From Rhynchopus sp. YZ270_cl-10 (lineage: Eukaryota; Euglenozoa; Diplonemea; Diplonemida; Diplonemidae), in NCBI GenBank assembly GCA_964035575.1, contig OZ037879.1, positions 1 through 64,000 of the forward strand: DNA of 64,000 nt, written 5' to 3'. This document shows, piece by piece, positions 3,001 through 41,092 of the stretch. Under the pieces are notes generated by a model that saw only the letters and a list, made by a program, of their open reading frames with translations, was not told where the DNA came from and did no database searches. Made by a program: the position numbers and the translations under genes. Within the stretch, counting starts at the first letter, position 1. Each line of letters begins with the position of its first letter.

Positions 3001-4824
3001 GCGGGTTTGCGGGTTTGCGGGTTTGCGGGTTTGCGGGTTTGCGGGTTTGCGGGTTTGCGGGTTTGCGGGTTTGCGGGTTTGCGGGTTTGCGGGTTTGCGG
3101 GTTTGCGGGTTTGCGGGTTTGCGGGTTTGCGGGTTTGCGGGTTTGCGGGTTTGCGGGTTTGCGGGTTTGCGGGTTTGCGGGTTTGCGGGTTTGCGGGTTT
3201 GCGGGTTTGCGGGTTTGCGGGTTTGCGGGTTTGCGGGTTTGCGGGTTTGCGGGTTTGCGGGTTTGCGGGTTTGCGGGTTTGCGGGTTTGCGGGTTTGCGG
3301 GTTTGCGGGTTTGCGGGTTTGCGGGTTTGCGGGTTTGCGGGTTTGCGGGTTTGCGGGTTTGCGGGTTTGCGGGTTTGCGGGTTTGCGGGTTTGCGGGTTT
3401 GCGGGTTTGCGGGTTTGCGGGTTTGCGGGTTTGCGGGTTTGCGGGTTTGCGGGTTTGCGGGTTTGCGGGTTTGCGGGTTTGCGGGTTTGCGGGTTTGCGG
3501 GTTTGCGGGTTTGCGGGTTTGCGGGTTTGCGGGTTTGCGGGTTTGCGGGTTTGCGGGTTTGCGGGTTTGCGGGTTTGCGGGTTTGCGGGTTTGCGGGTTT
3601 GCGGGTTTGCGGGTTTGCGGGTTTGCGGGTTTGCGGGTTTGCGGGTTTGCGGGTTTGCGGGTTTGCGGGTTTGCGGGTTTGCGGGTTTGCGGGTTTGCGG
3701 GTTTGCGGGTTTGCGGGTTTGCGGGTTTGCGGGTTTGCGGGTTTGCGGGTTTGCGGGTTTGCGGGTTTGCGGGTTTGCGGGTTTGCGGGTTTGCGGGTTT
3801 GCGGGTTTGCGGGTTTGCGGGTTTGCGGGTTTGCGGGTTTGCGGGTTTGCGGGTTTGCGGGTTTGCGGGTTTGCGGGTTTGCGGGTTTGCGGGTTTGCGG
3901 GTTTGCGGGTTTGCGGGTTTGCGGGTTTGCGGGTTTGCGGGTTTGCGGGTTTGCGGGTTTGCGGGTTTGCGGGTTTGCGGGTTTGCGGGTTTGCGGGTTT
4001 GCGGGTTTGCGGGTTTGCGGGTTTGCGGGTTTGCGGGTTTGCGGGTTTGCGGGTTTGCGGGTTTGCGGGTTTGCGGGTTTGCGGGTTTGCGGGTTTGCGG
4101 GTTTGCGGGTTTGCGGGTTTGCGGGTTTGCGGGTTTGCGGGTTTGCGGGTTTGCGGGTTTGCGGGTTTGCGGGTTTGCGGGTTTGCGGGTTTGCGGGTTT
4201 GCGGGTTTGCGGGTTTGCGGGTTTGCGGGTTTGCGGGTTTGCGGGTTTGCGGGTTTGCGGGTTTGCGGGTTTGCGGGTTTGCGGGTTTGCGGGTTTGCGG
4301 GTTTGCGGGTTTGCGGGTTTGCGGGTTTGCGGGTTTGCGGGTTTGCGGGTTTGCGGGTTTGCGGGTTTGCGGGTTTGCGGGTTTGCGGGTTTGCGGGTTT
4401 GCGGGTTTGCGGGTTTGCGGGTTTGCGGGTTTGCGGGTTTGCGGGTTTGCGGGTTTGCGGGTTTGCGGGTTTGCGGGTTTGCGGGTTTGCGGGTTTGCGG
4501 GTTTGCGGGTTTGCGGGTTTGCGGGTTTGCGGGTTTGCGGGTTTGCGGGTTTGCGGGTTTGCGGGTTTGCGGGTTTGCGGGTTTGCGGGTTTGCGGGTTT
4601 GCGGGTTTGCGGGTTTGCGGGTTTGCGGGTTTGCGGGTTTGCGGGTTTGCGGGTTTGCGGGTTTGCGGGTTTGCGGGTTTGCGGGTTTGCGGGTTTGCGG
4701 GTTTGCGGGTTTGCGGGTTTGCGGGTTTGCGGGTTTGCGGGTTTGCGGGTTTGCGGGTTTGCGGGTTTGCGGGTTTGCGGGTTTGCGGGTTTGCGGGTTT
4801 GCGGGTTTGCGGGTTTGCGGGTTT
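1..4824. repeat. 8-bp satellite array (GCGGGTTT)n
   Basis: About 600 head-to-tail units of GCGGGTTT run from the window edge. The first 1.2 kb is irregular, with 6-, 7- and 9-bp variants clustered in the first 500 bases and single variants near 662, 930, 1136 and 1234. From 1241 to 4824 the array is 448 uninterrupted perfect units. Because 8 is not a multiple of 3 and no frame contains a stop, all three plus frames are open, so the long ORFs here are artefacts. The plus strand is G-rich with GGG runs spaced by 5 nt, which fits a G-quadruplex pattern. The same unit recurs at 24647, 30570, 36131 and 40922. Confidence 0.97.
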
Positions 4825-7800
4825 GCGACTTTGCCTTAGAGAATTTTGACTTTGCCTTAGAGAATTTTGACTTTGCCTTAGAGAATTCTGACTTTGCCTT
4901 AGAGAATTCTGACTTTGCCTTAGAGAATGTTGACTTTGCCTTAGAGCATTCTGACTTTACCTTAGAGAATGTTGACTTTGCCTTAGAGAATTCTGACTTT
5001 GCCTTAGAGAATACTGACTTTGCCTTAGAGAATTCTGACTTTGCCTTAGAGTATTCTGACTTTGCCTTAGAGAATTCTCACTTTGCCTTAGAGAATTCCG
5101 ACTTTGCCTTTGAGAATTTTGACTTTGCCTTAGAGAATACTGACTTTGCCTTAGAGAATTCCGACCTTGCCTTAGAGAATTTTGACTTTGCCTTAGAGAA
5201 TTCTCACTTTGCCTTAGAGAATTCTGACTTTGCCTTAGAGAATGTTGACTTTGCCTTAGAGAATTCTGACTTTGCCTTAGAGAATTCTGACTTTGCCTTA
5301 GAGAATTCTGACTTTGCCTTAGAGAATTCTGACTTTGCCTTAGAGAATTCTCACTTTGCCTTCGAGAATTCTGACTTTGCCTTAGAGAATTCTGACTTTG
5401 CCTTAGAGAATTCTGACTTTGCCTTAGAGAATTCTCACTTTGCCTTCGAGAATTCTGACTTTGCCTTAGAGAATTCTGACTTTGCCTTAGAGAATTCTGA
5501 CTTTGCCTTAGAGAATTCTCACTTTGCCTTCGAGAATTCTGACTTTGCCTTAGAGAATACTGACTTTGCCTTAGAGAATTCTGACTTTGCCTTAGAGTAT
5601 TCTGACTTTGCCTTAGAGTATTCTGACTTTGCCTTAGAGAATTCTCACTTTGCCTTAGAGAATTCCGACTTTGCCTTAGAGAATTTTGACTTTGCCTTAG
5701 AGAATTTTGACTTTGCCTTAGAGAATGTTGACTTTGCCTTAGAGCATTCTGACTTTACCTTAGAGAATACTGACTTTGCCTTAGAGAATTCTCACTTTGC
5801 CTTAGAGAATTCTCACTTTGCCTTCGAGAATTCCGACTTTGCCTTAGAGAATTCTGACTTTGCCTTAGAGAATTCTCACTTTGCCTTAGAGAATGTTGAC
5901 TTTGCCTTAGAGCATTCTGACTTTACCTTAGAGAATACTGACTTTGCCTTAGAGAATTCTCACTTTGCCTTAGAGAATACTGACTTTGCCTTAGAGAATT
6001 TTGACTTTGCCTTAGAGAATGGTGACTTTGCCTTACAGAATACTGACTTTGCCTTAGAGAATTTTGACTTTGCCTTAGAGAATACTGAGAATACTGACTT
6101 TGCCTTAGAGAATTCTCACTTTGCCTTAGAGAATGTTGACTTTGCCTCAGAGCATTCTGACTTTACCTTAGAGACTGTTGACTTTGCCTTAGAGAATACT
6201 GACTTTGCCTTAGAGAATGTTGACTTTGCCTTAGAGCATTCCGACTTTGCCTTAGAGAATTCTGACTTTGCCTTAGAGAATTCTGACTTTGCCTTAGAGA
6301 ATTCTGACTTTGCCTTAGAGAATTCTGACTTTGCCTTATAGAATACTCACTTTGCCTTAGAGAATGTTGACTTTGCCTTAGAGCATTCCGACTTTGCCTT
6401 AGAGAATTCTGACTTTGCCTTAGAGAATTCTGACTTTGCCTTAGAGAATTCTGACTTTGCCTTAGAGAATTCTCACTTTGCCTTAGAGAATGTTGACTTT
6501 GCCTTAGAGCATTCTGACTTTACCTTAGAGAATGTTGACTTTGCCTTAGAGAATTCTGACTTTGCCTTAGAGAATACTGACTTTGCCTTAGAGAATTCTG
6601 ACTTTGCCTTAGAGTATTCTGACTTTGCCTTAGAGAATTCTCACTTTGCCTTCGAGAATTCTGACTTTGCCTTAGAGAATACTGACTTTGCCTTAGAGAA
6701 TTCTGACTTTGCCTTAGAGTATTCTGACTTTGCCTTAGAGTATTCTGACTTTGCCTTAGAGAATTCTCACTTTGCCTTAGAGAATTCCGACTTTGCCTTA
6801 GAGAATTTTGACTTTGCCTTAGAGAATTTTGACTTTGCCTTAGAGAATTCTGACTTTGCCTTAGAGAATTCTCACTTTGCCTTAGAGAATGTTGACTTTG
6901 CCTTAGAGCATTCTGACTTTACCTTAGAGAATGTTGACTTTGCCTTAGAGAATTCTGACTTTGCCTTAGAGAATACTGACTTTGCCTTAGAGTATTCTGA
7001 CTTTGCCTTAGAGAATTCTCACTTTGCCTTAGAGAATTCCGACTTTGCCTTAGAGAATTCTGACTTTGCCTTAGAGAATTTTGACTTTGCCTTAGAGAAT
7101 ACTGACTTTGCCTTAGAGAATTCCGACCTTGCCTTAGAGAATTTTGACTTTGCCTTAGAGAATTCTGACTTTGCCTTAGAGAATGTTGACTTTGCCTTAG
7201 AGAATTCTGACTTTGCCTTAGAGAATTCTGACTTTGCCTTAGAGAATACTCACTTTGCCTTAGATAATGTTGACTTTGCCTTAGAGCATTCCGACTTTGC
7301 CTTAGAGAATTCTGACTTTGCCTTAGAGAATTCTGACTTTGCCTTAGAGAATTCTGACTTTGCCTTAGAGAATTCTCACTTTGCCTTCGAGAATTCTGAC
7401 TTTGCCTTAGAGAATTCTGACTTTGCCTTAGAGTATTCTGACTTTGCCTTAGAGAATTCTCACTTTGCCTTCGAGAATTCTGACTTTGCCTTAGAGAATA
7501 CTGACTTTGCCTTAGAGAATTCTGACTTTGCCTTAGAGTATTCTGACTTTGCCTTAGAGTATTCTGACTTTGCCTTAGAGAATTCTCACTTTGCCTTAGA
7601 GAATTCCGACTTTGCCTTAGAGAATTTTGACTTTGCCTTAGAGAATTTTGACTTTGCCTTAGAGAATTCTGACTTTGCCTTAGAGAATTCTCACTTTGCC
7701 TTAGAGAATGTTGACTTTGCCTTAGAGCATTCTGACTTTACCTTAGAGAATGTTGACTTTGCCTTAGAGCATTCTGACTTTACCTTAGAGAATTCTGATT

Positions 7801-15565: not shown

Positions 15566-15931
15566 ATGTTCGAAGAAATACTTGCCCGCAAACCCGCAAA
15601 CCCGATTATTCCGTCACGTAACCCGCAAACCTGTCGATTGAAGGCACGGTTTGCATGTCTTGGCTTCCCACACTACATAGTGACAGTAAAAAATGCGAAT
15701 CCTTTTGACTGGAGAGAGATCATTAGGGTGCTACGTCAGGGCGAAAGACAGATCCTAGTTGTTCAGTATTTGTTTAAATACTTGTTCAAGGGGAAGAAGG
15801 AGGTAAAGAAGGAAGGAGCCTCTATTGTTTCAATGGATTGTGTGGTGGAGTACCAAAAGCGTGGACTCCCCCACTTACACATTTTTTTGTGGGTAGCAAA
15901 GAAGCAGAAGCATAATTTGCTTTTGGGGTGA
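15566..15931 (+). pseudogene. Scrambled mini-Rep derived from the Helitron replication initiator
   Basis: A 121-codon ORF starts MFEEIL, like the MFEAES start of the full gene. It runs into AAACCCGC-repeat sequence (ARKPANPII) and then holds three blocks recognisable in the full Rep: (1) LKARFACLGFPHYIVTV with IIRVLRQGER; (2) the two-tyrosine motif QYLFKYLFKGKKE; (3) the HUH motif YQKRGLPHLHIFLWV. In the intact protein the order is 1, HUH, tyrosines. Here the tyrosine block precedes HUH, a permuted order, with no stop inside. Both catalytic signatures are present. It is probably a rearranged relic; a truncated Rep product with some activity cannot be excluded from sequence. Confidence 0.75.
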
Positions 15932-16097: not shown

Positions 16098-16835
16098 ATG
16101 TTCGAAGCGGAGTCTCAAGATTTTGATGGGGATTCGGCTGCCTGCGCGAGAGAGCTTCTCTTTACAGGCTCAAATGAATGGTCTAGATACCTGTCAGACA
16201 TGAGTGAATTTTTGCGTAGCTCTGCTGAAACGTCACGAATGCAGTTAGAAGAGATAAATTTTTTCTGCGTCCAGTACGAAAGCTCTGCACCCCATACAAC
16301 ATATGATGTCTGCGAGTGGTGTTTGCAGCGTGTTAAATTGAGAATAAAAACACATAATCTACATTGCCTCTTCAAGCACATGCACATCACACACGTTGCA
16401 AGATGCCGTCTTGCCTATGTTATTGCTTCTATTCAAACGATAACCGAAAAAGCTTCGTTCCGAGATCTCTTTGCTGTCCATCCTGAGTTAGAGTCTCGCT
16501 GGAATTGTTCTCTTGTTTTTCTCACTAATACTGACAAGAATAACATTAGGTTTCTTGAGGCAGAAAAACGCGATGCTATTACAGGACTTTCCCCACACAT
16601 TCTTGAATCAATAGAGAATTGTGCAAAACACATCTGTGAAAGATGGCTTGAGAAGAGGTCCGATACGCTGATAAAAAATGAGTCCATATGTCGATCTTTA
16701 GTTGCAGAATTTGAGAATAGGGTTTCTACTTCAGAAATGTGTGAGAGAAGCCTCGACCCGACCTCCCACTCAGCTGCAATGAAGCTTGAAGATTACCGTG
16801 ATAGAAGCGTATCTTATGCTGACATTGGACCTTGA
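16098..16835 (+). CDS. Helitron 1 Rep-helicase, N-terminal part
   Basis: This 245-codon ORF starts MFEAESQDFDGD and ends YADIGP at a TGA that overlaps the next ORF by four bases. It is rich in Cys/His pairs (CEWCLQRVKL, HMHITHVARC) of the kind found in the poorly conserved Helitron N-terminus. The downstream ORF begins in another frame with TWACKKCGA. In relatives the sequence reads continuously as ...LGPM..xCxxCGA, so the two are one protein separated by a single-base slip near 16830. A sequencing error, a natural inactivating frameshift or programmed frameshifting are all possible. I see no classic slippery heptamer at the junction. Confidence 0.72.
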   Translation: MFEAESQDFDGDSAACARELLFTGSNEWSRYLSDMSEFLRSSAETSRMQLEEINFFCVQYESSAPHTTYDVCEWCLQRVKLRIKTHNLHCLFKHMHITHVARCRLAYVIASIQTITEKASFRDLFAVHPELESRWNCSLVFLTNTDKNNIRFLEAEKRDAITGLSPHILESIENCAKHICERWLEKRSDTLIKNESICRSLVAEFENRVSTSEMCERSLDPTSHSAAMKLEDYRDRSVSYADIGP

Positions 16836-19800
16836 CTTGGGCCTGCAAAAAGTGTGGTGCAAAGCTATTTGCAGGTGAGGTCCGAGGAGAAGGGAAATAT
16901 GGAATTTGCTGCAACAGAATTAAGGCGAGAGACATCCCTGCAGCAATTGACTTTGAGAATGAGGACCACAAAAAATTGTTCTCAGAGAAGAAGTTTCTAG
17001 AGAATTCATACCGCCTGAATTCATATCACCAGATGGCAATGGCATTGCACACCCCGCACCAGCTCTTTTCAAACGCCACTGGAGTACACAACATAGTGCT
17101 GAAAGGAAAAGGGATGAAGCGCATTATGGGTCTGTCTGCTGATGCGGAAACAAGGAACCAAACCTGGTTTGTTGGTGGCTTGAACGAGCAGGACCGCGCC
17201 TTGAAAGGCTTGCATGAGATGGAGATGGTACCAGAACTGCACACATTGTACCTGGACATTAGGACCCTCCTCCAAGACAATTGGTATGTGAGGATGTACA
17301 GGCGAGCCTCAGTTCTGATGAGCACAGCCGAAGACAATGAACGCGTGGCCATAAACTTCGACGATCTGCGAGGACCTGAGAAGACGGGACAGGAGTACGC
17401 GAACGCAGCTGCAGAAGATGAATTGCGGGCTGTGTACACAGTCAGTGCCGGAACAGAGGGCTATGAAGACGCAGCAAATCGGCAGCAGTACAGCGTTTTT
17501 TTGCAGGGAGAAGCTTATGGTGAGGAAGGAAGGGATAGGTACAACAGTGTAATGACTGACTTTGATGCCCGGTTTGAGCCGCTGTGTTTTCCCTTGATCC
17601 ATCTGTACCCACAAAAAAATACAGGTTGGAGACACAATCGGAAAGATGACAAAACATCAAACCCCTACAGTGGTGTGTCAGCACAGCAGTACGGCTGTTT
17701 CCACCTGTTCTCACGGGTTACTGATAAAAACCCATCTGGGGAACCAGGGCCTGCACTTGTAGCGCGAAAGCTGACAGAATACTTTTTCCTACAGCTGGGC
17801 ATCCGTGCCATTACGCAACGCATATCTTACCACAGCCAGCAGATTGTCAAAAAATATGCAACCGAAGAATTCCTTAAAGAGGCCCGTGTTACAAAGGTGG
17901 TGGAAAACCGTCGCGTAACCACACACGATGCAACCAATGACACAGAAACAGCCACCACCACCCTCTATGCCAGCTACCCGCGTGGGAAGAGAGCTCGCAT
18001 TCAGGACCTCAACGATTCACTTGCGTTGAAGGCCCGTCTTGGCTGCCCCGATTATTTCCTGACCATGACAGCCAACCCGCACTGGCCTGAGATTCTTCGG
18101 GAGTTGCGTACAGGAGAAAGACCCTGTGACAGGTCGGATATTGTGCACCGTGTTTTCAACATTAAGATGGCTGAACTGGAGAAAATGTTGAAAGACAATG
18201 CACTCGGGACCTACCAGGCAATGGTTCGCGTGGTGGAGTACCAGAAGCGCGGACTCCCCCACTTGCATCTTCTTCTGTGGGTCGCAAAAGAGCATAAGCC
18301 AAAGTCTGCGTCAATTTTTGACATGGCGGTTTCGTGTCAGTTGCCTGATCCTGAAACGCAAAAAGATCTCTACAACTTGGTGTCTGAACAGATGATGCAC
18401 ACAAAATGTGATACAGTCCCCAGCGCACGGTGCAAGGTGCCCGGCCCAGACGGAAACGCACGGTGCAAGCAACGCTACCCGAAGAACTTTCGGAAGGATA
18501 CCTTGGCAAGCGAGACAGGGATGTACAGCTGCGGCATGCGGCCTGACAATGAGATCACAAGTGCTGTTGCCGAAAAGGACCAAGCTCGGGCGGCAAAGCT
18601 TGCCAAGGAAGGGAAGACGCACCCCAGCTGCAGAGACAACCGCTATGTCGTTCCCTACAACATTGTTTTTCTCATCAAGTTCATGAGTCATTTCAATATT
18701 GAAGCTGTTGGATCTCCAGTCGTCATCAGATACCTCTTCAAGTATCTGTTCAAGGATGAGGAGACTGCAAATGTTAAAGTTTCACTTCCCGATGGAGAAA
18801 AGAACAAAACAGATGAGTGTATGAGCTACCTGACAGGCATGCACATCGGATCGCTTGAGGCCATCGGATACCTCCTGGGAACAAAAATGCGCTACATTGA
18901 CCCAGGTGTTGTAAGGCTTGATGTCCATCTTTCAGGCCAGCAACGGCTCTACTATTTTCCTGGCAAGGAGGCAGATGCGCTTGACAAAGCCAAAGACACA
19001 ACTCTTACCGCCTGGTTTGCAAATGGTAACGCAAAACGTGACCCATCTTCCGAGTTCCAGGGAATACAATACCTCAACTACATCACTGTTCCCGAGTACT
19101 TTTCCTTCTCCAGAGAAGAGGCAGCGTGGAAACTGAGGAAAAGTTATATGTTTTGCCAACTAACTCAGTCCCTTGTCCCAACAATCAGATCAAGAGCTGC
19201 AAAGTCTCATCTTCTGGCTATTGGGCGACTCTATAGAACCCCTGTTCTTAATAAGGAACTGCAGGCTCTGCGTACAATCCTTATGGTGAGAAAAGGAGCA
19301 ACTGGCTTTGACGATCTGATGACAGTAGAAGGGGAAAAGTGCAAATCTTTTACAGCTGCCGCAAATGCAATGGGGCTTCTCCAGGATGGTGAACTTGTGA
19401 AGCTAACGCTCGAGGATGCAGTAAAGACCACTGTGTCAGGAAGATGCCTGAGGTTTACCCTTGCTGTTCTACTCAGCTCCTTTGACATTCCTTCTGAGAA
19501 AATGAGAGACCTCTGGAAGACATACAAGGTGGAGCTGTGTAAGCGTCCTCTGAAGAAGGGAGAAATTGAACCGTCTGACCCGTCTAACCCGGATACGGTA
19601 TCCTTCCAGGAGGAAAATGAAGCACTCCTGGACATTCAGAACGTTATGAGAAACATTTGCGGTTCGGATGTGGAACTCAAAGTCTTTGGCCTCCCAACAC
19701 CAACTGCTGCTGTGAGGAGTGCGAACGATGGAGTGTCTTGGGTTATGAAGGATGAAATTTACAACATGGAAGAGCAGTGGCAGGAGTGGGAGAAGATTGA

Positions 19801-22399
19801 ACCTAAGCTCAATAAAAGACAGAGAGAAGCAGTTGAGAGTGTTCAACTCTCTGTGACTCAGGGCAAAGGCGAGATGTTTCTGCTTCAGGGTGCTGCAGGG
19901 ACTGGAAAAACGTTTACCTACCAGGCCATGCTCAGTTGGTGCAGAAGCCACAGAGGGGTTCCGGCGCAAAGCGACACGCATCGTCCAAACATTGCCCTTG
20001 CAGTCGCAAGCTCTGGTATTGCAGCTATGCTCCTGCCTGGAGGGAGAACTTCTCACAACAGGTTCAAGTTTCCTCTTGATCTGTACCCAGACGACCACCA
20101 CTCTGTCTGCAAACTCACAAAGGAGATTGAGGATCTCATCCGCGCAACAGACCTTATTGTATTTGACGAGGTGGTCATGGCAAACAGGGGCCACATTGAA
20201 CTTCTGGACAGAACCTGCAGAAAGGTGACCGGAAAGACCATGTGGTTTGGTGGAATCACTGTGGTTCTTGGTGGTGACTTCAAGCAGATTCTTCCTGTCA
20301 CTGAGGGAGACAAGAGTGCCACGCTGAAGAACTGTCTGCATACTTCTCCTCTATTCAAAAAAATGAAAATGCTGTCGCTGACCGAGATTATGAGGCAGAG
20401 AGATGACAAGGACTGGGCCAACTACCTTGGAACCATTGGCGATGGGTCACGCAACGCTGATGACGGTTCCATTACGCTCTGGAGAACCCTCTACCGAAAG
20501 GACAATGGGAATTATGTTGTTCCCGAAGATCTAATCACCCACGTCTTCCCTGGGATCGGGAAAGGGGTGGTTGGAAATGGCATGATCCTTGCACCGACGA
20601 ACAAAGCGCAGAAAGCAATGAACAACATTTGTCTCAAGAGGCTGCGTGGGGAACAACAAGAAGAACTTCGTGAGTTCCATCTGACGGGGAAGGACACTTG
20701 CCTGGAGGAGTCTGTTGATGAAGAATCTGCCATTGACTCAGACGTGATGAATGCGTACCAGCAGACAGGCATACCCGACCACTGCATCACGGTTAAAGTT
20801 GGTGCTCCCTTGATGTTGCTCAAAAACCTTAACCCACCAAAAGGTCTCTGCAATGGAACGCGGTTTATTGTGACTGGCGTGACACAACTCAACATTCAGG
20901 GAAGAATTGTGGGCGATCCTAAAAGAGCTGGAAGGGAAGTGAATATTCCAAGGGTAAAGAACACGCCTGATGAGAAGAAGGCTGGCTTTAGCATGCAGCG
21001 CGTCCAGTTTCCTGTTGCACTTTCCTTTGCCTCCACGATAAACAAGTCTCAGGGACAGACCCTCGATAGGGTTGGACTCGACCTCACAGAGTCACAGTGC
21101 TTTGCACATGGGCAGCTGTACGTTGCTTTGAGCAGATGCCCAAAAGCAGAGTATGTCAGGGTCGCAGTGCCTCTGAAGACATGGACCGCAGCAAACAGAA
21201 GGATCGTTGTTGAGCCATACAGAGTGTCGAACCCGGTCTACAAGGACATGCTCAAATCTGTTTCCGACCAGGGACTGGAGGGAATCTTCATGCAACTCAC
21301 TGAGGCTGAAGAGGCCACGCTACAGAGTTACCACATCCTATCTGACAAAGAGTACTCCGAACAGGCCCACATAAAAGCAAATATGCTTCCTCCGCCAGCT
21401 AAAGACCTGAAGTTCTTCGCCCCAATGCCTATGCAGTGTGAGAGCCTGCAATTTGAAGAGACTGTAGATCTTGTTCCACAAGAACTGGTGGATTTTGAGC
21501 CAACTAAGAAGAGGAAGAGAGAATGTGCAATAAAGTCTTTTTCCAAGAAGAAGCAGAAGAAGAACCTTCCAGCACCTGAACACAGTTATACCACATCCTC
21601 TGTTGGAAGCACCTCTACCCTTATGAACCCGCGCCAGTGTGAGGAGGGCCAGTTGATGGCGGATAGCAAGAGTCTTCTCAGGGGTGGGGTGTACCATGTT
21701 GGGCTGTTGAATGACGATATGGCGTGGCAGATGGGGGTCGCACTGAGCAACCTGGAGAACCATAATGCACAGAACCGTCCGAGCTCTTCCGAACTCTTCC
21801 CTGACAGCCTCCACAAGTCTTCAGGAGAGACACGGCTGAAGAAATACAGAGATGGCACTCCTTTCTACACGATGGAGTGTGGTTGGGCCGCGCTTAACTG
21901 GGTGCTGGTGTATCTGAAGTATGATAGGCTCACCTTCTCACAGATGCAGAGCTGTCAAAAGTGCACTGCACAAATTCTGAAGGACGCTGTAAAGAATTTC
22001 ACGCCCCATGATATACCTGCAATGCAAGATGTAGAGGTTAAAAGAGAAGGATGGTTTTCGTTTGACGCCTTGGTGAACGGGATGAGGGCCAGAACCGGAG
22101 ACGAGTGGAAGGCGTCGTATCCGTCACCAGAAGTTGAGGCGATGACCAATGTTTGTGCAGTATTGTTCTGCAACGGGAGTGCGAAAACTGATGGGCACTA
22201 CCTTACTGGACTCCTCAATACAGACGATGGCACGTGGGTTCTGAAGGACACTGACTGCGAAGAGAAGACCTTCCCTAATGAGGAAACCTTGTTCAGACAC
22301 TGTCTAAAGAATGGTTTCATCGCGTACAGGTGTCATCGTCTGCGGAATGAAGGTGGACCACTGGAGGATTACAACTGGTTTGGAAGTCATGATGCGTGA
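16832..22399 (+). CDS. Helitron 1 Rep (HUH-Y2) / PIF1 helicase / Josephin-like protease
   Basis: About 1855 codons, open after the frameshift; the first codon is TTG, so this is a continuation rather than a true start. Order of domains: zinc motif CKKCG...GICC (residues 5-27); Helitron-like N domain (PLCFPLIHLYPQKNTGW, about 250); HUH histidines 477 and 479 (PHLHLLLW); catalytic tyrosines 634 and 638 (RYLFKYLFK); SF1 PIF1-type helicase with Walker A GAAGTGKT (1020-1027), Walker B DE (1112-1113), GGDFKQILPV, and TINKSQGQTLDRVGLD with LYVALSR near 1400-1440. A lysine-rich, NLS-like stretch follows near 1560-1580. The C-terminal domain (about 1660-1855) has CGWAALNWVL (C1683), GWFSFDALV (W1741), H1789 and WVLKD (D1806), the spacing of Josephin (MJD) deubiquitinases. 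Rep nicks and joins DNA and the helicase unwinds it during rolling-circle transposition. The protease role is inferred. Confidence 0.9.
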   Translation: MTWACKKCGAKLFAGEVRGEGKYGICCNRIKARDIPAAIDFENEDHKKLFSEKKFLENSYRLNSYHQMAMALHTPHQLFSNATGVHNIVLKGKGMKRIMGLSADAETRNQTWFVGGLNEQDRALKGLHEMEMVPELHTLYLDIRTLLQDNWYVRMYRRASVLMSTAEDNERVAINFDDLRGPEKTGQEYANAAAEDELRAVYTVSAGTEGYEDAANRQQYSVFLQGEAYGEEGRDRYNSVMTDFDARFEPLCFPLIHLYPQKNTGWRHNRKDDKTSNPYSGVSAQQYGCFHLFSRVTDKNPSGEPGPALVARKLTEYFFLQLGIRAITQRISYHSQQIVKKYATEEFLKEARVTKVVENRRVTTHDATNDTETATTTLYASYPRGKRARIQDLNDSLALKARLGCPDYFLTMTANPHWPEILRELRTGERPCDRSDIVHRVFNIKMAELEKMLKDNALGTYQAMVRVVEYQKRGLPHLHLLLWVAKEHKPKSASIFDMAVSCQLPDPETQKDLYNLVSEQMMHTKCDTVPSARCKVPGPDGNARCKQRYPKNFRKDTLASETGMYSCGMRPDNEITSAVAEKDQARAAKLAKEGKTHPSCRDNRYVVPYNIVFLIKFMSHFNIEAVGSPVVIRYLFKYLFKDEETANVKVSLPDGEKNKTDECMSYLTGMHIGSLEAIGYLLGTKMRYIDPGVVRLDVHLSGQQRLYYFPGKEADALDKAKDTTLTAWFANGNAKRDPSSEFQGIQYLNYITVPEYFSFSREEAAWKLRKSYMFCQLTQSLVPTIRSRAAKSHLLAIGRLYRTPVLNKELQALRTILMVRKGATGFDDLMTVEGEKCKSFTAAANAMGLLQDGELVKLTLEDAVKTTVSGRCLRFTLAVLLSSFDIPSEKMRDLWKTYKVELCKRPLKKGEIEPSDPSNPDTVSFQEENEALLDIQNVMRNICGSDVELKVFGLPTPTAAVRSANDGVSWVMKDEIYNMEEQWQEWEKIEPKLNKRQREAVESVQLSVTQGKGEMFLLQGAAGTGKTFTYQAMLSWCRSHRGVPAQSDTHRPNIALAVASSGIAAMLLPGGRTSHNRFKFPLDLYPDDHHSVCKLTKEIEDLIRATDLIVFDEVVMANRGHIELLDRTCRKVTGKTMWFGGITVVLGGDFKQILPVTEGDKSATLKNCLHTSPLFKKMKMLSLTEIMRQRDDKDWANYLGTIGDGSRNADDGSITLWRTLYRKDNGNYVVPEDLITHVFPGIGKGVVGNGMILAPTNKAQKAMNNICLKRLRGEQQEELREFHLTGKDTCLEESVDEESAIDSDVMNAYQQTGIPDHCITVKVGAPLMLLKNLNPPKGLCNGTRFIVTGVTQLNIQGRIVGDPKRAGREVNIPRVKNTPDEKKAGFSMQRVQFPVALSFASTINKSQGQTLDRVGLDLTESQCFAHGQLYVALSRCPKAEYVRVAVPLKTWTAANRRIVVEPYRVSNPVYKDMLKSVSDQGLEGIFMQLTEAEEATLQSYHILSDKEYSEQAHIKANMLPPPAKDLKFFAPMPMQCESLQFEETVDLVPQELVDFEPTKKRKRECAIKSFSKKKQKKNLPAPEHSYTTSSVGSTSTLMNPRQCEEGQLMADSKSLLRGGVYHVGLLNDDMAWQMGVALSNLENHNAQNRPSSSELFPDSLHKSSGETRLKKYRDGTPFYTMECGWAALNWVLVYLKYDRLTFSQMQSCQKCTAQILKDAVKNFTPHDIPAMQDVEVKREGWFSFDALVNGMRARTGDEWKASYPSPEVEAMTNVCAVLFCNGSAKTDGHYLTGLLNTDDGTWVLKDTDCEEKTFPNEETLFRHCLKNGFIAYRCHRLRNEGGPLEDYNWFGSHDA

Positions 22400-22569: not shown

Positions 22570-22593
22570 AAAAAAAAAAACAATCATTGTATA

Positions 22594-23092
22594 AAAAATC
22601 CACGTCCTGGGCTGGACGTTAAATTGCATCCGGGGGCCCTTTTGTGGCACTCCTCCTGAAACTCTATGAAGGTCTGACCTGAGGGTAAAAGGTGCTGGGT
22701 ATGCTACCCTGGGTGCTGAAGGCAGGCACACAACATGTGTGGAGGGACCTGCAGAGCCCTAGCCAAGTGAAGCCAAGGAGGCCCCCCTAGGAAACTAGGG
22801 AACGGATTGGAAGAGACCTCGCCGGTAGCCGGGAACCCTCCCTGGGCTAGTACAATGATGAAACTTCAATCTAAAGTCCACACCCATGTGGCGGCCGCTT
22901 TGGCATGCGTCTGTAAGGACAGCCTTGACTGATACTTTCTGTATTAGCACACGATTGCCTCCCTGAAGGCTACGTAGCTACCTGAGTACAAAAAAAATAA
23001 TAAATGGGGTAAAACGCCACCTGGGGTCACAAGGCCCAGGCTCCTACCTTTCTTGGTAGGGGAGCTGTTGAGTGACCTATTGTAAGTCAATT
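22594..23092. other. Unassigned non-coding stretch dense in short perfect hairpins
   Basis: No ORF. The base composition is more balanced than the flanks. Several clean stem-loops are visible: CCCTAG-GAAA-CTAGGG with a GNRA tetraloop (about 22786-22801), CACACA-ACA-TGTGTG (about 22727-22741), CCACA-CCCA-TGTGG (about 22880-22893) and CCTACC-TTTCTT-GGTAGG (about 23043-23060). This suggests a structured RNA or the structured 3' end of a retroposon. It does not match the snRNAs, 5S rRNA or tRNAs I know. Identity unknown. Confidence 0.45.
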
Positions 23093-23548: not shown

Positions 23549-23669
23549 CTGATCCTATCAATCGAAACTAAAACGAAAAGCTTCCATTTCTTTTCCACAA
23601 ACCTGCATCATTTCACCCATCCAAAATACACACACCACTTCAGTCATACACATCCTCATACACAAAATA

Positions 23670-24140
23670 ATGCCCAAAACACACAAGCAACAGCTGGAGG
23701 ATGACATAGTTCAATACTTGCAACTTCCTGTAACATCTGGCCCTGTAGAGCTTACTCTGCACAAGGCAGTGGTGGCTGTGATATGCTACGGAGGACTAAC
23801 TGAATCCGAATGTGCGAGTCTCCTAACCAAGGACATGACGAGTGACGATTCTGGTGCGATCTTCGAATATAAGGATGGCGAGAAGCGCAAAACATTTTTA
23901 ATTCCAACGGACACTCCAGGGTACGAAGCAATTCACAACTATGTGAGCGTGCGTACGGGTTTCACAAACCCCCACTTCTTCCTGCATTGTGACGTGTCCA
24001 GGTTTTTTCTTAGAAACAGAAAGATCGCAGTAACCGCAGTGTACAAGATCCCACGCAGCATGGCTGTGGCCCTAGGCACGAACCCTGCAAGGTACAGTGG
24101 AGGCACCCTCCGCAGGATGCGTGCATGTCTGAGCCAGTAA
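23670..24140 (+). CDS. Tyrosine-recombinase-like fragment
   Basis: A 156-codon ORF starts MPKTHKQQLEDD after an AT/CA-rich leader. The patterns LHKAVVAVICYGGLTESECASLL, then a beta-hairpin-like segment (EYKDGEKRKTFLIPTD), then ARYSGGTLRRMRACLSQ follow the order of the catalytic domain of tyrosine recombinases (GLR-xSE helix, then the H-S-L-R-R-type helix). The ORF is much shorter than a full enzyme and looks like a relic. Cryptons, DIRS-type elements and cellular recombinases are possible sources. I cannot tell which, and no reverse transcriptase lies beside it. Confidence 0.5.
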   Translation: MPKTHKQQLEDDIVQYLQLPVTSGPVELTLHKAVVAVICYGGLTESECASLLTKDMTSDDSGAIFEYKDGEKRKTFLIPTDTPGYEAIHNYVSVRTGFTNPHFFLHCDVSRFFLRNRKIAVTAVYKIPRSMAVALGTNPARYSGGTLRRMRACLSQ

Positions 24141-24646
24141 ATTTGTTTTCTTTGTATCTCTTTCTTTTCTTTACTATGTTTTGTTTTCACATATACCGCT
24201 TTCATTAAGGTACAGGTTATACTGTGTCACGTTTGTGGGGTGTATGGGTTTATGGGTTTTCTGGGTTTGTAGTTTTCTGGGTTTTGTGGGTTTTTAGGGC
24301 TTCGGATTATTTTGTAGTAGTAGTATTTTAAATCGTCTTGAATTTTTTGGTAGTGGTAGTATGCGGGTATATTAAAGTATCTTCAATCAAAAAAAAACAA
24401 ATAAATTGTCACAGCAAAAACAAAGAAAGGAAGCTATATAATATACTTTTTCCTTTTTCCAGGAAATTTTACCCCCCCCCCCAATTCACACACCACAACA
24501 GAGTAGTAACACTATGTTAGAGTAAAACCAAATGGAAAAGCTCATACATCGTATTGGATAGTTGTAATCTAGCATAATTACGCTTCACATACACCAGCCT
24601 GCTATCAGCCACACCAGCTAGATAACGATGGTTGCTCACTTCTCGT
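24141..24646. other. Non-coding gap ending in a Helitron 2-type edge motif
   Basis: T-rich DNA with GGGTTTATGGGTTTTCTGGG-type short repeats (about 24236-24296), then A-rich sequence with a C-run at 24472-24482. From about 24590 the sequence (CACATACACCAGCCTGCTATCAG...) resembles the CAACCACACCAGCCT edge found before each GCGGGTTT tract further right. It leads straight into a single GCGGGTTT unit at 24647. No gene seen. Confidence 0.55.
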
Positions 24647-24654
24647 GCGGGTTT
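24647..24654. repeat. Single GCGGGTTT unit at an element junction
   Basis: One unit lies between a Helitron 2-type 5'-edge motif on the left and CTAATTATTACGGGTTTGAG on the right. This is the shortest of the junction tracts (1, 4 and 36 units, plus a one-sided tract of 21). Confidence 0.75.
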
Positions 24655-25388
24655 CTAATTATTACGGGTTTGAGGGGTACAAAATGGCGACGCTGCGGGA
24701 TTGCTGGATCGCGTGGTCCCAGTATTTCTGATATGACACTCCGGTAGACTGGGGCCCAAAAACGACGTAATGTACTGGGTTTGGATGTTAGCATTTTCTG
24801 GCAATATTTTAAAATTAAAAATGAGTACGAATACCCTGTACTACCATGTATTCTGTATAAAATAGCCGTAAAATTACGCCACATTTAACCACAACTACTC
24901 AAAATGTGAAATCTGTTGCTTTAATGGACTCATAGAGCATTTTTATAACCTGGACATGGGGGTCAGATTCCACTTTAGAGCACCTAAAATTTGGTCAAAA
25001 TAATTTTTTTTCACTATTTCTGCCTCTGGGTATCTAATTATTACGGGTTTGAGGGGTACAAAATGGCGACGCTGCGGGATTGCTGGATCGCGTGGTCCCA
25101 GTATTTCTGATATGACACTCCGGTAGACTGGGGCCCAAAAACGACGTAATGTACTGGGTTTGGATGTTAGCATTTTCTGGCAATATTTTAAAATTAAAAA
25201 TGAGTACGAATACCCTGTACTACCATGTATTCTGTATAAAATAGCCGTAAAATTACGCCACATTTAACCACAACTACTCAAAATGTGAAATCTGTTGCTT
25301 TAATGGACTCATAGAGCATTTTTATAACCTGGACATGGGGGTCAGATTCCACTTTAGAGCACCTAAAATTTGGTCAAAATAATTTTTT
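24655..25388. repeat. 379-bp tandem repeat, left block
   Basis: One full unit (24655-25033) is followed by a second that is cut at 25388 by the Mutator-like insertion. Units begin CTAATTATTACGGGTTTGAG, contain CTGGACATGGGGGTCAGA and end with TTTTCACTATTTCTGCC. The copies look identical by eye, which implies very recent duplication. The unit start is the same sequence that ends the second Helitron family (CTAGTTATTACGGG), so these units are probably copies of its 3' region. Confidence 0.92.
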
Positions 25389-27532: not shown

Positions 27533-28354
27533 TAATTTTTTTTCACTATTTCTGCCTCTGGGTATCTAATTATTACGGGTTTGAGGGGTACAAAATGGCG
27601 ACGCTGCGGGATTGCTGGATCGCGTGGTCCCAGTATTTCTGATATGACACTCCGGTAGACTGGGGCCCAAAAACGACGTAATGTACTGGGTTTGGATGTT
27701 AGCATTTTCTGGCAATATTTTAAAATTAAAAATGAGTACGAATACCCTGTACTACCATGTATTCTGTATAAAATAGCCGTAAAATTACGCCACATTTAAC
27801 CACAACTACTCAAAATGTGAAATCTGTTGCTTTAATGGACTCATAGAGCATTTTTATAACCTGGACATGGGGGTCAGATTCCACTTTAGAGCACCTAAAA
27901 TTTGGTCAAAATAATTTTTTTTCACTATTTCTGCCTCTGGGTATCTAATTATTACGGGTTTGAGGGGTACAAAATGGCGACGCTGCGGGATTGCTGGATC
28001 GCGTGGTCCCAGTATTTCTGATATGACACTCCGGTAGACTGGGGCCCAAAAACGACGTAATGTACTGGGTTTGGATGTTAGCATTTTCTGGCAATATTTT
28101 AAAATTAAAAATGAGTACGAATACCCTGTACTACCATGTATTCTGTATAAAATAGCCGTAAAATTACGCCACATTTAACCACAACTACTCAAAATGTGAA
28201 ATCTGTTGCTTTAATGGACTCATAGAGCATTTTTATAACCTGGACATGGGGGTCAGATTCCACTTTAGAGCACCTAAAATTTGGTCAAAATAATTTTTTT
28301 TCACTATTTCTGCCTCTGGGTATCTAATTATTACGGGTTTGAGGGGTACAAAAT
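27533..28354. repeat. 379-bp tandem repeat, right block
   Basis: This continues the left block after the Mutator-like insertion: the remainder of the interrupted unit, two full units (27566-27944 and 27945-28323) and a 31-bp start of another that breaks off at 28354. With the left part this is an array of at least four units into which the transposon jumped. Confidence 0.92.
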
Positions 28355-28530
28355 TTCGACCGAGCGCACCCACCACGCGCAGCGTGGTGGGGGCGCGAGG
28401 GAGAGCGGAGCGAGCCTTTACGCGCAGCGTGAAGGCGAGTGGAGCACGGGGGGTCTGGGGGGGCAGTGCCCCCCCTGAAAAATTTTTGAAGTTAGGCAGT
28501 CCTGATTTGGGAGTTTTTTTGTAGATTTGT
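28355..28530. other. GC-rich hairpin cluster interrupting the 379-bp array
   Basis: This segment replaces the expected repeat after ACAAAAT. It contains CACCACGC-GCA-GCGTGGTG, a similar CTTTACGC-GCA-GCGTGAAG fold, GAGCGGAGCGAG, and GGGGGGGCA-G-TGCCCCCCC with a 9-bp stem. It is followed by TGAAAAATTTTTGAAG, itself an AT hairpin. It looks like the structured end of a mobile element, but I cannot assign the family. Confidence 0.5.
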
Positions 28531-30569
28531 ATGTATTTTTGGGTGAGGGAATGCTCGAGAGAGAGAACATATCAGTGAAGCGAGGAGGGTGCTCACCAGG
28601 ATGTCAGGTACTTTAGGTAAGGTTACTGTGTTCGCGTTAGTAGTATCAGAGCTATTTATACTCACAAGCGCCCTCTATTAACATATGTAAGAGTCCTTCT
28701 ACGTGTACATGCATGAGTAAGTGCAGGTAAATCTATGAGTAATTGCCTTTATAGATACATGGCTTTAAGACTACACCAAATTGAAATATGTGAAAGTCAG
28801 CATTTGCGGTGCTGAACCACACAAACCTGCCACAAAAAAGCGAGATAATTTGTAGACATTAGACTCAGAAATGATATGGGGCCAAATGAGGTTCAAAACC
28901 AGCTCTAACCAATAGCTATCTGGTAGTACTCATTATTGGTAGTGGCCAAATAGTCTGTCTCTCAACCACACCTGAGATGTCATGTTTCAGCGAGCTTTAT
29001 TATAATGGAATATTATGGAAGAGTTTTTCTGGACTAAACCGGTCGGTACAACTCTCTGCCAATTTTTACCAAGACTTCTTACATACACATGTACCATTAT
29101 CTACCATTACCTGAAGAGCAAATTATCTTCACACCCACACCGTGAAATAATCTACCGACTTTCTTCACTCCTGAATATTATGAGCAAAAGTTCTGTCAAA
29201 AACCTGGCACTAAAAGCGAACTGCAGACGTATTTTTATGTTATTATTAGCGGAGGAGCCTTTGAACCACACCATCCTGCGACACATAATTTTTCTGAGAA
29301 TCAGTCATTATTAGCGGCGGATCTAAATAGCCTAATAACAATCAGCCTGTTCTACATTAGCAGTGAATATAAGCGGTGGAGCAAAGTGCCTCTCAACCAC
29401 ACCCTCCTGCTCCTACATTTTAGCAACCTTTCTTCCATGCACAAATGAAATAAATCCGCCAACACTTTAGCAAACTATCTTCTCTATTCGAATATGTCAG
29501 TATTAATATCATAGAAATAAAATAGTCTCTCATTGAGACTCAACCACATTATTCATTGAAAGATTTTGATTTTTGATTCTCCGTAGTCTGTGCGTGCTGT
29601 GATGGGGTCAATTTACGCTGCGAAAAGGGTATATTCTTAACCTAAAAATGCATGTATCAGTTTTTATCCACCATATTATTTACATGGTGAAACGTTGCGA
29701 GCTTTTTTCTCACATATTAGTGATATTGAGCCAAATAGGTTCACAACCACACCAGTCTGTTATGTGGCAGCATATTTGCTGCGTGAGCAAAATATCCAAA
29801 TATTCAATAACACGAACCTGCTGTTTTTAGCATAATATTAGAAGCTACATCCTGTCGTAGATTTTATATCCTATACCCAAATTGTGAACCCAATATCTCC
29901 ACAGTTAAGTGGTACGTGGGGAAACTCAAATGTCTTCTCACCCAGAGCCTCCTGCCAAATGTTAGTGTTAGAGCTTTCAATTTTCATAGAAATCTAAAAA
30001 ATTCGTAGAGGAACAAATATTAGTATAAATTGCGTCAGATCCCAACGTTGCGCGCAGACCATGCCTCCGTTTGTGAGCTTTTCTGTACTACTACCACCAA
30101 TGCCTCAACCACACCATTTTAGCAAGCTCTTTTCGCGTTTGTGGCCACACCAGCTTATTGCAGTCAATATTCTCTGCGGAGCCAAATAGCCTCTCAACTA
30201 CACAAACCTGCTGTTTTTAGCAGTATTTAGTGCAATCAGTTGTTATTAGAGCCCAAATCCTGCCATAAATAAGCTGCAGAGCGAAATACCTCTAAACTAT
30301 ACCATCTTGCTACAGTTTATAACACGTTACTATAATCAATTACTCTGTACATATTAATCACTCATGTCAGCTGTATTCATAATAATTCACGGCGGAGCAA
30401 AATGCCTCATACCCACCCCATCATGCCTCATGCATGCTTTTCCGTGCCATTCAGGTTCTCCAGTGAATTTTAGGTTACATTGCGTGTTTACATATCATTA
30501 CTCATACCTTAATCGCATCAACACAAAGTAGGTATAACCAAACCACATATTAGCGAGCTTTCTTCTTGT
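28531..30569. other. Two-kb non-coding region of degenerate edge-motif repeats
   Basis: No credible gene. A motif of the form CTCAACCACACCAxCCTGCT, followed by TTTTAGCGAGC, recurs about a dozen times at irregular spacing, for example near 28813, 28965, 29267, 29392, 29738, 30100, 30195 and 30290. GCGGAGC-AAATAGCCTC often precedes it. The last copy (30536-30569) adjoins the 36-unit GCGGGTTT tract. The region looks like an old, diverged tandem array built from the 5' edge of the second Helitron family. Confidence 0.5.
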
Positions 30570-30857
30570 GCGGGTTTGCGGGTTTGCGGGTTTGCGGGTT
30601 TGCGGGTTTGCGGGTTTGCGGGTTTGCGGGTTTGCGGGTTTGCGGGTTTGCGGGTTTGCGGGTTTGCGGGTTTGCGGGTTTGCGGGTTTGCGGGTTTGCG
30701 GGTTTGCGGGTTTGCAGGTTTGCGGGTTTGCGGGTTTGCGGGTTTGCGGGTTTGCGGGTTTGCGGGTTTGCGGGTTTGCGGGTTTGCGGGTTTGCGGGTT
30801 TGCGGGTTTGCGGGTTTGCGGGTTTGCGGGTTTGCGGGTTTGCGGGTTTGCGGGTTT
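30570..30857. repeat. GCGGGTTT tract, 36 units
   Basis: Exactly 288 bp, 36 units, with one variant unit (GCAGGTTT near 30713). On the left is AGCGAGCTTTCTTCTTGT, on the right CTAGTTATTACGG. Both are edges of the second Helitron family. Confidence 0.96.
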
Positions 30858-32260
30858 CTAGTTATTACGGAATAGAGGGCTTGCTTTTGGCATCTCATCT
30901 TTCATGGCGGTTTGCTACTTCCGAGTGATTCTGATATGACACTCCAGTAGTATGGGGCCCAGAAACGACAGCCCCGACCGGGGGCCTCAGTCCCCAGGAT
31001 CTGGGAATATCTAAAATGTGTGCGGCATTTCACGGCTATTTTTGTGAGTAAAATTGCGATATTTTGTGTTTCTGAGGTACTGGGTGTATATGTTATAAAA
31101 ATTTCAAAAAACGAGATAACCATGAAATATGGCCAGTATCCCCATAAAATGAGGCTATTGCGACCCTGGAGGCCCACTTTTGACACTTAGGGCCAAATTT
31201 AGGTGTGTAAGAGTATCGGCTTGAAAATATTTTTTTTCGTGATTTTTGGGGTCATTTTCTGGCTGGGAAAATTGGGCCACATATAACTACAACTGCTCAA
31301 AAGGTCAAATCAGTGGCTTTAAATGACTCATTGGGCATTTTTATGACCTGGACATGGGGGTCAGATTCCATTTTTAACATGATTAAAATTGGTCACAAGA
31401 CCCTGAGAGAAAACCCAAGGTCAAATTGACCTTGAGTACCAGGTCAAATTTGTGTGGAAAAATTTTTCAGTACCTAATTTCTGATGCTCAAAAGTACAAA
31501 ATTCCTTCGGGAATGGCTTCATAGGACATTTCCATAACCTGGACATGGGGGTCAGACTCCACTTTTGACCACCTAAAATTTGGTCATACACATGTATGAG
31601 ACCCAAAAACCAGGATTTTTGACCAAAAAAAAATTTCCCAGCAATTTTTGCCTACAAAAAATCGAAAAAAAAAATTTTTGATTTTGGCTCTCCGGAGTCT
31701 GTGCGTGCTGTGGTGGGGTCAATTTGCGCTGAGAAATGGGTATTTTTGACCTAAAATGCATGTATCAGTTTTTACATGATTTTTGGTGTTTTTGGGTTTT
31801 GTGTGGGTTTTTTGGTCAGTACCTAATTTCTGATGCTCAAAAGTACAAAATTCCTTCGGCAATGGCTTCATAGGACATTTCCATAACCTGGACATGGGGG
31901 TCAGACTCCACTTTTGACCACCTGAAATTTGGTCATACACATGTATGAGACCCAAAAACCAGGATTTTTGACCAAAAAAAATTTTCCCACCAATTTTTGC
32001 CTACAAAAAATCGAAAAAAAAAAATTTTGATTTTGGCTCTCCGGAGTCTGTGCGTGCAGTGATGGGGTCAATTTGCGCTGAGAAATGGGTATTTTTGACC
32101 TAAAATGCATGTATCAGTTTTTACATGTTTTTTGGTTTTTGTGTAAGTTCCTGTAGGACAGTTGGGTTGATTGGTAAGTAATTTACAACTGGAAAACTAG
32201 GTGGATCGATTCTTTTGTGCGTTTTTACTACAGAAATATTCTGTTTTCCCTTTTTTTCTT
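30858..32260 (-). repeat. Helitron 2 3'-terminal region (copy 1), with internal 349-bp repeat
   Basis: Non-coding and matched by 36163-37500. Read on the minus strand it ends ...CCGTAATAACTAG, and CTAG suits the CTRR 3' end of Helitrons. Inside, a unit of about 349 bp recurs (TCAGTACCTAATTTCTGATG at 31467 and 31816). CTGGACATGGGGGTCAGA recurs at about 31350, 31540 and 31890. The strings GTCTGTGCGTGC and GCATGTATCAGTTTTTAC also repeat. No ORF of interest. Confidence 0.75.
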
Positions 32261-35919: not shown

Positions 35920-36130
35920 AGTTTTTTGAGAAATAGTTCACCTGTTTTTGGTGTGTGAGTACACAAATGCTATGAAAAGAGAAATGAGGGGTGAGCCAAG
36001 TTCAATTCATTTTTCTATTCAATTTTTTCGGCTTTCACATTTGTAAAAATGCAAAACCTTCATACAATAAAAATAAAATTCTGTTCACAACCACACCAGC
36101 CTCCTACATTTTAGCGAGCTTTCTTCTAGT
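35920..36130 (-). promoter_or_regulatory. Helitron 2 5' edge and leader (copy 1)
   Basis: Non-coding and near-identical to 40711-40921. Read on the minus strand it starts after the tract with ACTAGAAGAAAGCTCGCTAA, then AGGAGGCTGGTGTGG, and leads to the accessory gene start. It probably contains the 5' terminus recognised by Rep and the promoter. Confidence 0.5.
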
Positions 36131-36162
36131 GCGGGTTTGCGGGTTTGCGGGTTTGCGGGTTT
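36131..36162. repeat. GCGGGTTT tract, 4 units
   Basis: Exactly 32 bp between the 5' edge of Helitron 2 copy 1 (left) and the CTAG end of copy 2 (right). Confidence 0.95.
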
Positions 36163-40710: not shown

Positions 40711-40921
40711 AGTTTTTTGAGAAATAGTTCACCTGTTTTTGGTGTGTGAGTACAAAAGTGCTATGAAAAGAGAAATGAGGGGTGAGCCAAGTTTAATTCA
40801 TTTTTCTATTCAATTTTTTCGGCATTCACATTTGTAAAAATGCAAAACCTTCAGACAATAAAAAATAAGTTCTGTTCACAACCACACCAGCCTCCTACAT
40901 TTTAGCGAGCTTTCTTCTTGT
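40711..40921 (-). promoter_or_regulatory. Helitron 2 5' edge and leader (copy 2)
   Basis: Near-identical to 35920-36130. It ends at the right in AGCGAGCTTTCTTCTTGT before the GCGGGTTT tract. Confidence 0.5.
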
Positions 40922-41092
40922 GCGGGTTTGCGGGTTTGCGGGTTTGCGGGTTTGCGGGTTTGCGGGTTTGCGGGTTTGCGGGTTTGCGGGTTTGCGGGTT
41001 TGCGGGTTTGCGGGTTTGCGGGTTTGCGGGTTTGCGGGTTTGCGGGTTTGCGGGTTTGCGGGTTTGCGGGTTTGCGGGTTTGCGGGTTTGCG
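40922..41092. repeat. GCGGGTTT tract, 21 units
   Basis: 21 perfect units (168 bp) plus GCG. Left is the Helitron 2 5' edge. To the right there is no CTAG end; the sequence goes directly into a 13-bp repeat and the poly(T) of the LINE. Confidence 0.96.

Follow-up and report, generated by a model that had tools for sequence, protein, structure and literature searches.

We analysed the first 64 kb (the window) of contig OZ037879.1 of the diplonemid Rhynchopus sp. YZ270_cl-10, labelled C47 here, and found a Helitron whose Rep-helicase ends in a domain with a Cys-His-Asp arrangement, at the place where sister Helitrons carry an OTU-like domain. The two kinds of tail meet the helicase at one sharp swap point, the tail is homologous to the C-terminal domains of Mutator-like element (MULE) transposases, and its three candidate catalytic residues are conserved among its relatives. 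We read the tail as a papain-like, Josephin-related protease with a predicted C1683-H1789-D1806 triad, of a family also present on MULEs, which stands in place of the OTU-like domain of the sisters and would remove ubiquitin or a ubiquitin-like modifier; we give this reading a probability of about 0.6. The genome searched comprises 152 Mb in 126 contigs; C denotes contigs of this genome, L loci taken from it and P database proteins.

The fused domain and the swap point

The Helitron protein is encoded by a main open reading frame (ORF) that in a Pfam scan matched Helitron_like_N (PF14214, residues 308-482, E 4.8e-32), PIF1 helicase (PF05970, residues 992-1208, E 2.1e-50) and Pif1_2B (PF21530, E 6.5e-15). 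It thus holds in one protein the HUH-type Rep domain and the PIF1-type helicase by which a Helitron is recognised. The tail and the sites within it lie as follows.

16832..22399, plus strand: Helitron Rep-helicase main ORF, 1855 aa, an open frame with a mechanically assigned TTG start
21474..21475, plus strand: swap point, the end of DNA identity with OTU-bearing sisters (blastn, seven loci)
21500..21565, plus strand: Lys/Arg-rich linker KKRKRE...KKKQKKN (from the translation)
21749..22366, plus strand: Josephin-like, probably papain-like cysteine-protease domain, residues 1640-1845 (hidden Markov model [HMM] 57.8 bits, HHalign, low-confidence AlphaFold [AF2] model)
21878..21880, plus strand: predicted nucleophile Cys1683 in E-C-G-W-A-A-x-N-W (on ataxin-3 C14 in global HHalign)
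22196..22198, plus strand: predicted catalytic His1789 (on ataxin-3 H119 in global HHalign)
22247..22249, plus strand: predicted catalytic Asp1806, first D of the DTD motif (on ataxin-3 N134 in global HHalign)

A sequence-only reading of this DNA had likened the end of the protein to the Josephin domain of ataxin-3, and every string that it quoted (CGWAALNWVL, EGWFSFDALVNGM, H1789, WVLKD and LKNGFIAYRC) is present in the frame 16832-22399. Its central observation, a C-terminal domain with a Cys-His-Asp arrangement fused to a Helitron Rep-helicase, is supported, and profile-profile alignment places the three residues on the Josephin triad. The order and spacing that it described also hold: the window has 106 residues from Cys to His and 17 from His to Asp, and ataxin-3 has 105 and 15 between the members of its C14/H119/N134 triad (available text of PMC11088879). 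In five MULE-type tails the corresponding distances are 91-97 and 15-17 residues.

At least 128 matches to Helitron_like_N occur in the genome. Seven of the 11 sister tail regions that we took (L044, L045, L046, L048, L049, L050 and L052) end in an OTU-like domain with the motif GDGTCFYHA and a late HTxNPxHFN. The remaining four are L043, from another Helitron family without the OTU motif; L047 and L051, which consist of an eight-base repeat, wholly and in the first part, respectively; and L053, with a long frame whose motifs resemble those of a reverse transcriptase. The OTU label of the sister tails is based on the DGTCFYHA motif and on matches to PF02338 below the Pfam cut-off (E 0.0069-0.025) in the three of the seven that were scanned; a PDB search with these tails returned nothing at E up to 1.

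In blastn, the window shares 84.5-86.4% DNA identity over 628-1356 bp with the seven OTU-bearing sisters, and this identity stops at position 21474 in six loci and at 21472 in one. The sequence-only reading had proposed a search for the same fusion in other Helitrons, and a second copy was indeed found on C37, 94% identical over the tail; at the DNA level it crosses the swap point at 96% identity. Both kinds of tail are thus attached to one type of helicase at a single, shared point, and this is a protease-domain swap inside one Helitron lineage. The Lys/Arg-rich linker, which from its motif we take to be a possible nuclear localisation signal, has a counterpart in the sisters, where a similar Lys/Arg-rich KKRKRDPEDKSPKKRKKNN precedes the OTU-like domain.

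Relatives of the tail and its probable place among cysteine proteases

A protein search of the genome with the window tail returned seven places including the window itself: the Helitron copy on C37, short pieces on C5 and C80, and distant places on C4, C32 and C7. Searches from two distant relatives returned 14 and 16 places. We compared nine near-full-length copies, namely the window, L002 (C37), L005 (C4, the same locus as L059), L007 (C7), L056 (C14), L057 (C4), L058 (C14), L060 (C36) and L006 (C32). The predicted Cys is kept in eight of these, with Gly instead in L006, and the predicted His and the DTD motif are present in all nine. An HMM built from five tails of this genome, none of them from a Helitron, gave the window tail 57.8 bits, where the highest of 5000 shuffled versions of it reached 14.1, and the resemblance therefore exceeds chance. 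HHalign scores between the window tail and the other tails were likewise high, 94-101 with three masters (leading sequences of the profiles), against at most 25.2 for 234 decoys; these decoys were single-sequence pieces, half of them reversed, run with three of the five MULE-type masters.

In L007, L056 and L058, MULE/Mutator transposase domains stand ahead of the Josephin-like domain. PF10551 was matched in all three (E 9.6e-8, 1.4e-5 and 3.1e-9, the second below the Pfam cut-off) and PF00872 in L056 (E 3.7e-5) and L058 (E 1.3e-3, below the cut-off). SWIM in L005, L007, L056 and L058 and SAP in L005 and L007 were all below the Pfam cut-offs; the scan of the L005 frame gave SWIM and no transposase match, and that of L060 covered the domain only. 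The database protein P0004, which carries a precomputed PF10551 assignment, is a 99% match to L057 over the part searched, and L057 and L058 are near-identical copies on different contigs, which fits recent transposition. L006 lies within a 1770-aa frame (L038:3141-8450, minus strand, C32) with no Pfam match of note. Further on, this frame reads HMHWTSF...CKDSFGK...QKDGSSCGLF, which by its motif resembles an Ulp1/C48 protease, with no Pfam match. The Josephin-like domain is a family common to Helitron and MULE transposases and not specific to Helitrons. Outside the genome, a protein database search with the window tail found only itself (one of 658 candidates), one with a MULE tail found only P0004 (one of 648), and a longer MULE profile found P0004 and P0005, a MULE without the tail (two of 8000 scored). 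No relative of the domain was found in viral and prokaryotic contigs, searched with one peptide pattern each.

The affinity of the family was assessed by HHalign with thin profiles (five or six family sequences, three Josephins, three C39s and three OTU-like tails), so the scores are rough. In local alignments the five MULE-type masters scored 30.2-35.0 against Josephin led by ataxin-3 (pairwise P 6.5e-5 to 4.5e-4) and 27.4-33.0 against Josephin led by JOSD2 (P up to 1.4e-3), as compared with 21.4-22.9 for C39 and 15.9-19.8 for the sister OTU-like tails. Column shuffles were made for two masters, both led by L057. For the first, the real Josephin score was 33.3 against a mean of 12.4 and maximum of 22.2 in 300 shuffles; for the second, a six-sequence profile, it was 30.6 against a maximum of 25.3. 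In global alignments the Cys fell on ataxin-3 C14 and the His on H119 in all 11 profiles, and the Asp fell on N134 in 10 and on residue 135 in one, so that the catalytic Cys, His and Asn/Asp are in register; the 11 profiles are not independent, since they are re-mastered versions of the same five or six sequences. Josephin (peptidase family C86) resembles the domain further in having spacings within about 15 residues of those here, a His, in HW or HY, that follows a G-[FYW] helix and then a strand, and a terminal helix and strand. The domain differs from Josephin in lying outside the reach of Pfam and at the end of a transposition protein, and its third residue is Asp where ataxin-3 has Asn, although JOSD2 also has D.

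Several results weigh against a Josephin affinity. At E up to 10, neither the window tail nor the complete ORF nor any member scanned gave a match to Pfam Josephin (PF02099), which the sequence-only reading had put forward as a check, and Pfam scans of the tail, the full protein and the family members gave no informative match. In local HHalign led by the window sequence, Josephin (24.7) only ties with C39 (25.2-25.4). Ataxin-3 and JOSD2 as single sequences (21.0-23.4 and 17.3-18.2) do not exceed the best of the 234 decoys (25.0-25.2). An hmmsearch of the family profile against the PDB had no Josephin among the best 60 of 85 matches, which are chance matches headed by calmodulins. The oxyanion Gln of Josephin, five residues before the Cys (Gln9 in ataxin-3), has no counterpart in the family: all five MULE-type tails read Arg at this position, L060 with a Gln two residues before it, and in the window there is no Gln between the conserved His preceding the domain Cys and that Cys. 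The AF2 model of the domain (mean predicted local distance difference test score, pLDDT, 45.4) is too poor to decide the fold. Its second half resembles USP deubiquitinases, which were the best Foldseek matches (probability 0.97-0.99 for the best of them, E 0.08 or worse) and which VIA places mostly on model residues ~130-200, where the His and Asp are; no Josephin was among the VIA matches listed for this model, which does not exclude Josephin. A PDB search with the window tail gave one match, at a chance-level E of 1.5. A genome search for Josephin was empty and is uninformative because its control also matched nowhere.

The name given by the sequence-only reading thus stands in part. "Josephin-like" is fair, by the register of the triad and by the best HHalign scores of the five MULE-type masters, all of which prefer Josephin to C39 and OTU; Josephin proper is not borne out, with no Pfam match, and the tie on the window master leaves a rival peptidase family level with it there.

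These results could instead reflect a papain-like protease of another or a new family (C39-like, USP-like or unnamed) in which case the likeness to Josephin would be a general property of the fold. Peptidase_C39 was matched around the Cys by one of six members (E 0.058, or 0.05 on rescan, over 37 residues), and the tie on the window master, the USP-like second half of the model and the lack of an ataxin-3-type oxyanion Gln point the same way. However, in six global alignments the Cys and His fall on those of Josephin every time and the Asp five times, whereas with C39, run with one of its three masters, the Cys falls into register once and the His and Asp never; against OTU none of the three is in register. 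Locally, Josephin exceeds C39 by 7-13 units for the five MULE-type masters, and a control alignment of Josephin with C39 scores 10.6. We consider another family unlikely; for C39 itself, neither the profile match nor the register of the triad is borne out, but its local score equals that of Josephin for the window master. OTU was rejected, as the window tail has no D-G-x-C, no Pfam OTU match and HHalign scores of 13.7-19.8, and VTD was dropped because its D-x-H is not conserved: the window, L057 and L006 have it, and L005, L007, L056 and L060 lack it. For the tail, a papain-like cysteine-protease fold is supported, if not proven; the profile comparisons favour a position close to Josephin within that group, again short of proof.

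Helitrons capture genes, and the tail could be a functionless gene piece captured accidentally by one Helitron lineage, an explanation compatible with the others. Only two copies with the tail were found, neither of them whole, and they offer few changes by which to gauge selection. When the window is compared with C37, the tail (residues 1640-1855) has four synonymous and five non-synonymous changes (non-synonymous rate dN 0.0098, synonymous rate dS 0.030), the part of the helicase compared has 18 and five (dN 0.0044, dS 0.056) and the linker has two and seven (dN 0.036, dS 0.038). The tail is open with an intact triad in both copies; two copies cannot demonstrate strong constraint on it. Against an accident, the two copies are about 4% apart in DNA and both retain the fusion and the open tail, the tail sits at the very joint where the sisters have a comparable domain, and decayed fragments of window-type tails occur elsewhere in the genome (L003 and L004). 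An accidental capture therefore seems improbable to us, and an accident confined to a single copy was rejected with the second copy on C37. It is hardly likely that the tail binds proteins or ubiquitin without catalysis, on a retained protease fold, as the Gly at the Cys position of L006 and the inactive relatives of transposon protease domains described in the available text of PMC9741609 might suggest, when eight of nine near-full-length copies retain the whole Cys-His-Asp set despite 22-30% identity of family members to the window tail.

State of the copies and neighbouring repeats

Neither copy of the fusion is complete. Upstream of the main ORF lies one further piece of the same protein.

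16098..16835, plus strand: N-terminal part of the Rep-helicase, in another frame than the main ORF, 245 aa (comparison with sister L068)

Sister L068 has a single frame across this stretch, with 79% identity over 70 aa at the end of the upstream ORF and 74% over 328 aa at the start of the main ORF, and the window copy is thus interrupted near 16832, possibly by an intron, an assembly error or a frameshift. At 15566-15931, ~2.1 kb before the principal Rep match, a short ORF matches part of Helitron_like_N (E 5.6e-8); in many of the sisters a frame with this partial match, mostly of 162-194 aa, lies ~2.5 kb upstream. The copy on C37 has a 1514-aa frame in which only the last part of the Rep domain is present. 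On that contig, 27903-31566 resembles the 5' part of the window element (77-91% DNA identity) and 76754-82690, ~45 kb away, resembles the 3' part (95-96%); the two stretches are perhaps one element broken up by later insertions. Helitrons end in 5'-TC and in a 3' hairpin and CTRR. A nested insert of ~410 bp at ~22593-23004 of the window is missing from the C37 copy. It is 97-100% identical to 39 other places among the matches listed (1409 candidates, 40 scored) and is a young, abundant short repeat.

Elements of another Helitron family, with frames of 2275 aa, are situated close to contig ends (C8, C24, C26, C27, C28 and others), mostly on the minus strand at low coordinates and on the plus strand at high ones, opposite to most OTU-bearing sisters. 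OTU has at least 88 matches in the genome, and many of these fall in long frames that are themselves repeated (955, 1747, 2035 aa and others); such domains seem to be common in several of its repeated element families. An ORF at 23670-24140 of the window has a weak match to Phage_integrase (tyrosine recombinase; E 0.017), and the DNA of 23560-24660 occurs at 41 places among the matches listed, the window included. These copies mostly share one orientation towards the contig end: of 22 copies within the first 100 kb of a contig, 20 are on the plus strand; of 16 beyond 1 Mb, 15 are on the minus strand, as are three at about 0.2 Mb on C9.

The first 4.8 kb of the window (1-4827), at the start of C47, are (GCGGGTTT)n on the plus strand. 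C1 begins with the same eight-base repeat and the end of C87 (L047) is its complement. At these three contig ends, the ones seen, the G-rich strand has its 5' end at the contig end, whereas usual telomeres have the opposite strand orientation. The repeat has 83,848 overlapping exact 35-base matches genome-wide, and short interior arrays of it lie between elements at 30569-30857, 36130-36162 and 40921-41092 of the window. No tRNA was found in the window.

Transposon-borne proteases and the ubiquitin system

Cysteine proteases carried by transposons are known, and the most telling feature here is the clean swap. The sequence-only reading had noted OTU domains in Helitrons, and the available text of PMC9741609 and PMC4067079 agrees, reporting both VTD and OTU there. 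Like the Helitron and Helentron OTU domains of these papers, the tail is a predicted cysteine protease on a rolling-circle transposon, and an OTU-like domain occupies the same position in the sisters; it belongs to another sequence family, its HHalign scores to the sister OTU-like tails being within the decoy range. VTD, found in Helitrons and herpesvirus tegument proteins, is a papain-like deubiquitinase domain that occurs in Helitrons besides or instead of OTU. It has an invariant Asp-x-His (PMC9741609, available text), whereas in the family described here the Asp lies 15-17 residues after the His. Activity is reported for the VTDs of two zebrafish Helitrons, with a role in transposition proposed only, and OTU replaces VTD in alloherpesviruses and some Helitrons, for which protection from the proteasome has been proposed (the former in PMC9741609 and PMC4067079, the latter in PMC9741609, in the text available). 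Mutator and Ginger transposases provide a parallel in which a cysteine protease sits at the transposase C-terminus: in the available text of PMC2836005, Ginger1 transposases end in OTU or Ulp1, the two classes alternating at one position, and Mutator elements carry Ulp1. The scanned MULE tails of this genome match neither Ulp1 nor OTU in Pfam. A literature search by whole words found no paper pairing Josephin with Helitron, and among the matches listed for Josephin with transposons or transposable elements none was, by its title, on such a domain.

We infer deubiquitinase activity of the tail, and its action on ubiquitin, from the domains with which it keeps company. Acting on the transposition protein or its partners, the tail would trim off ubiquitin or a ubiquitin-like modifier, and this removal may protect the transposition protein from the proteasome or from host silencing. 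OTU and the Josephin-like domain could then be interchangeable answers to one need. At slightly less than an even chance, the family would be an undescribed, transposon-specific group of deubiquitinases, distant kin of Josephin, that has been traded between rolling-circle and cut-and-paste transposons and has replaced OTU, such that the removal of ubiquitin itself, and not a particular enzyme, is what is needed.

Two close Helitron types with different classes of cysteine protease amount to a natural swap experiment. If both tails do act on the same modifier, deubiquitination would be the selected function. The occurrence of one domain on both Helitrons and MULEs points to exchange across unrelated classes of transposon, and the swap suggests that transposons can exchange such domains to handle the ubiquitin system of the host.

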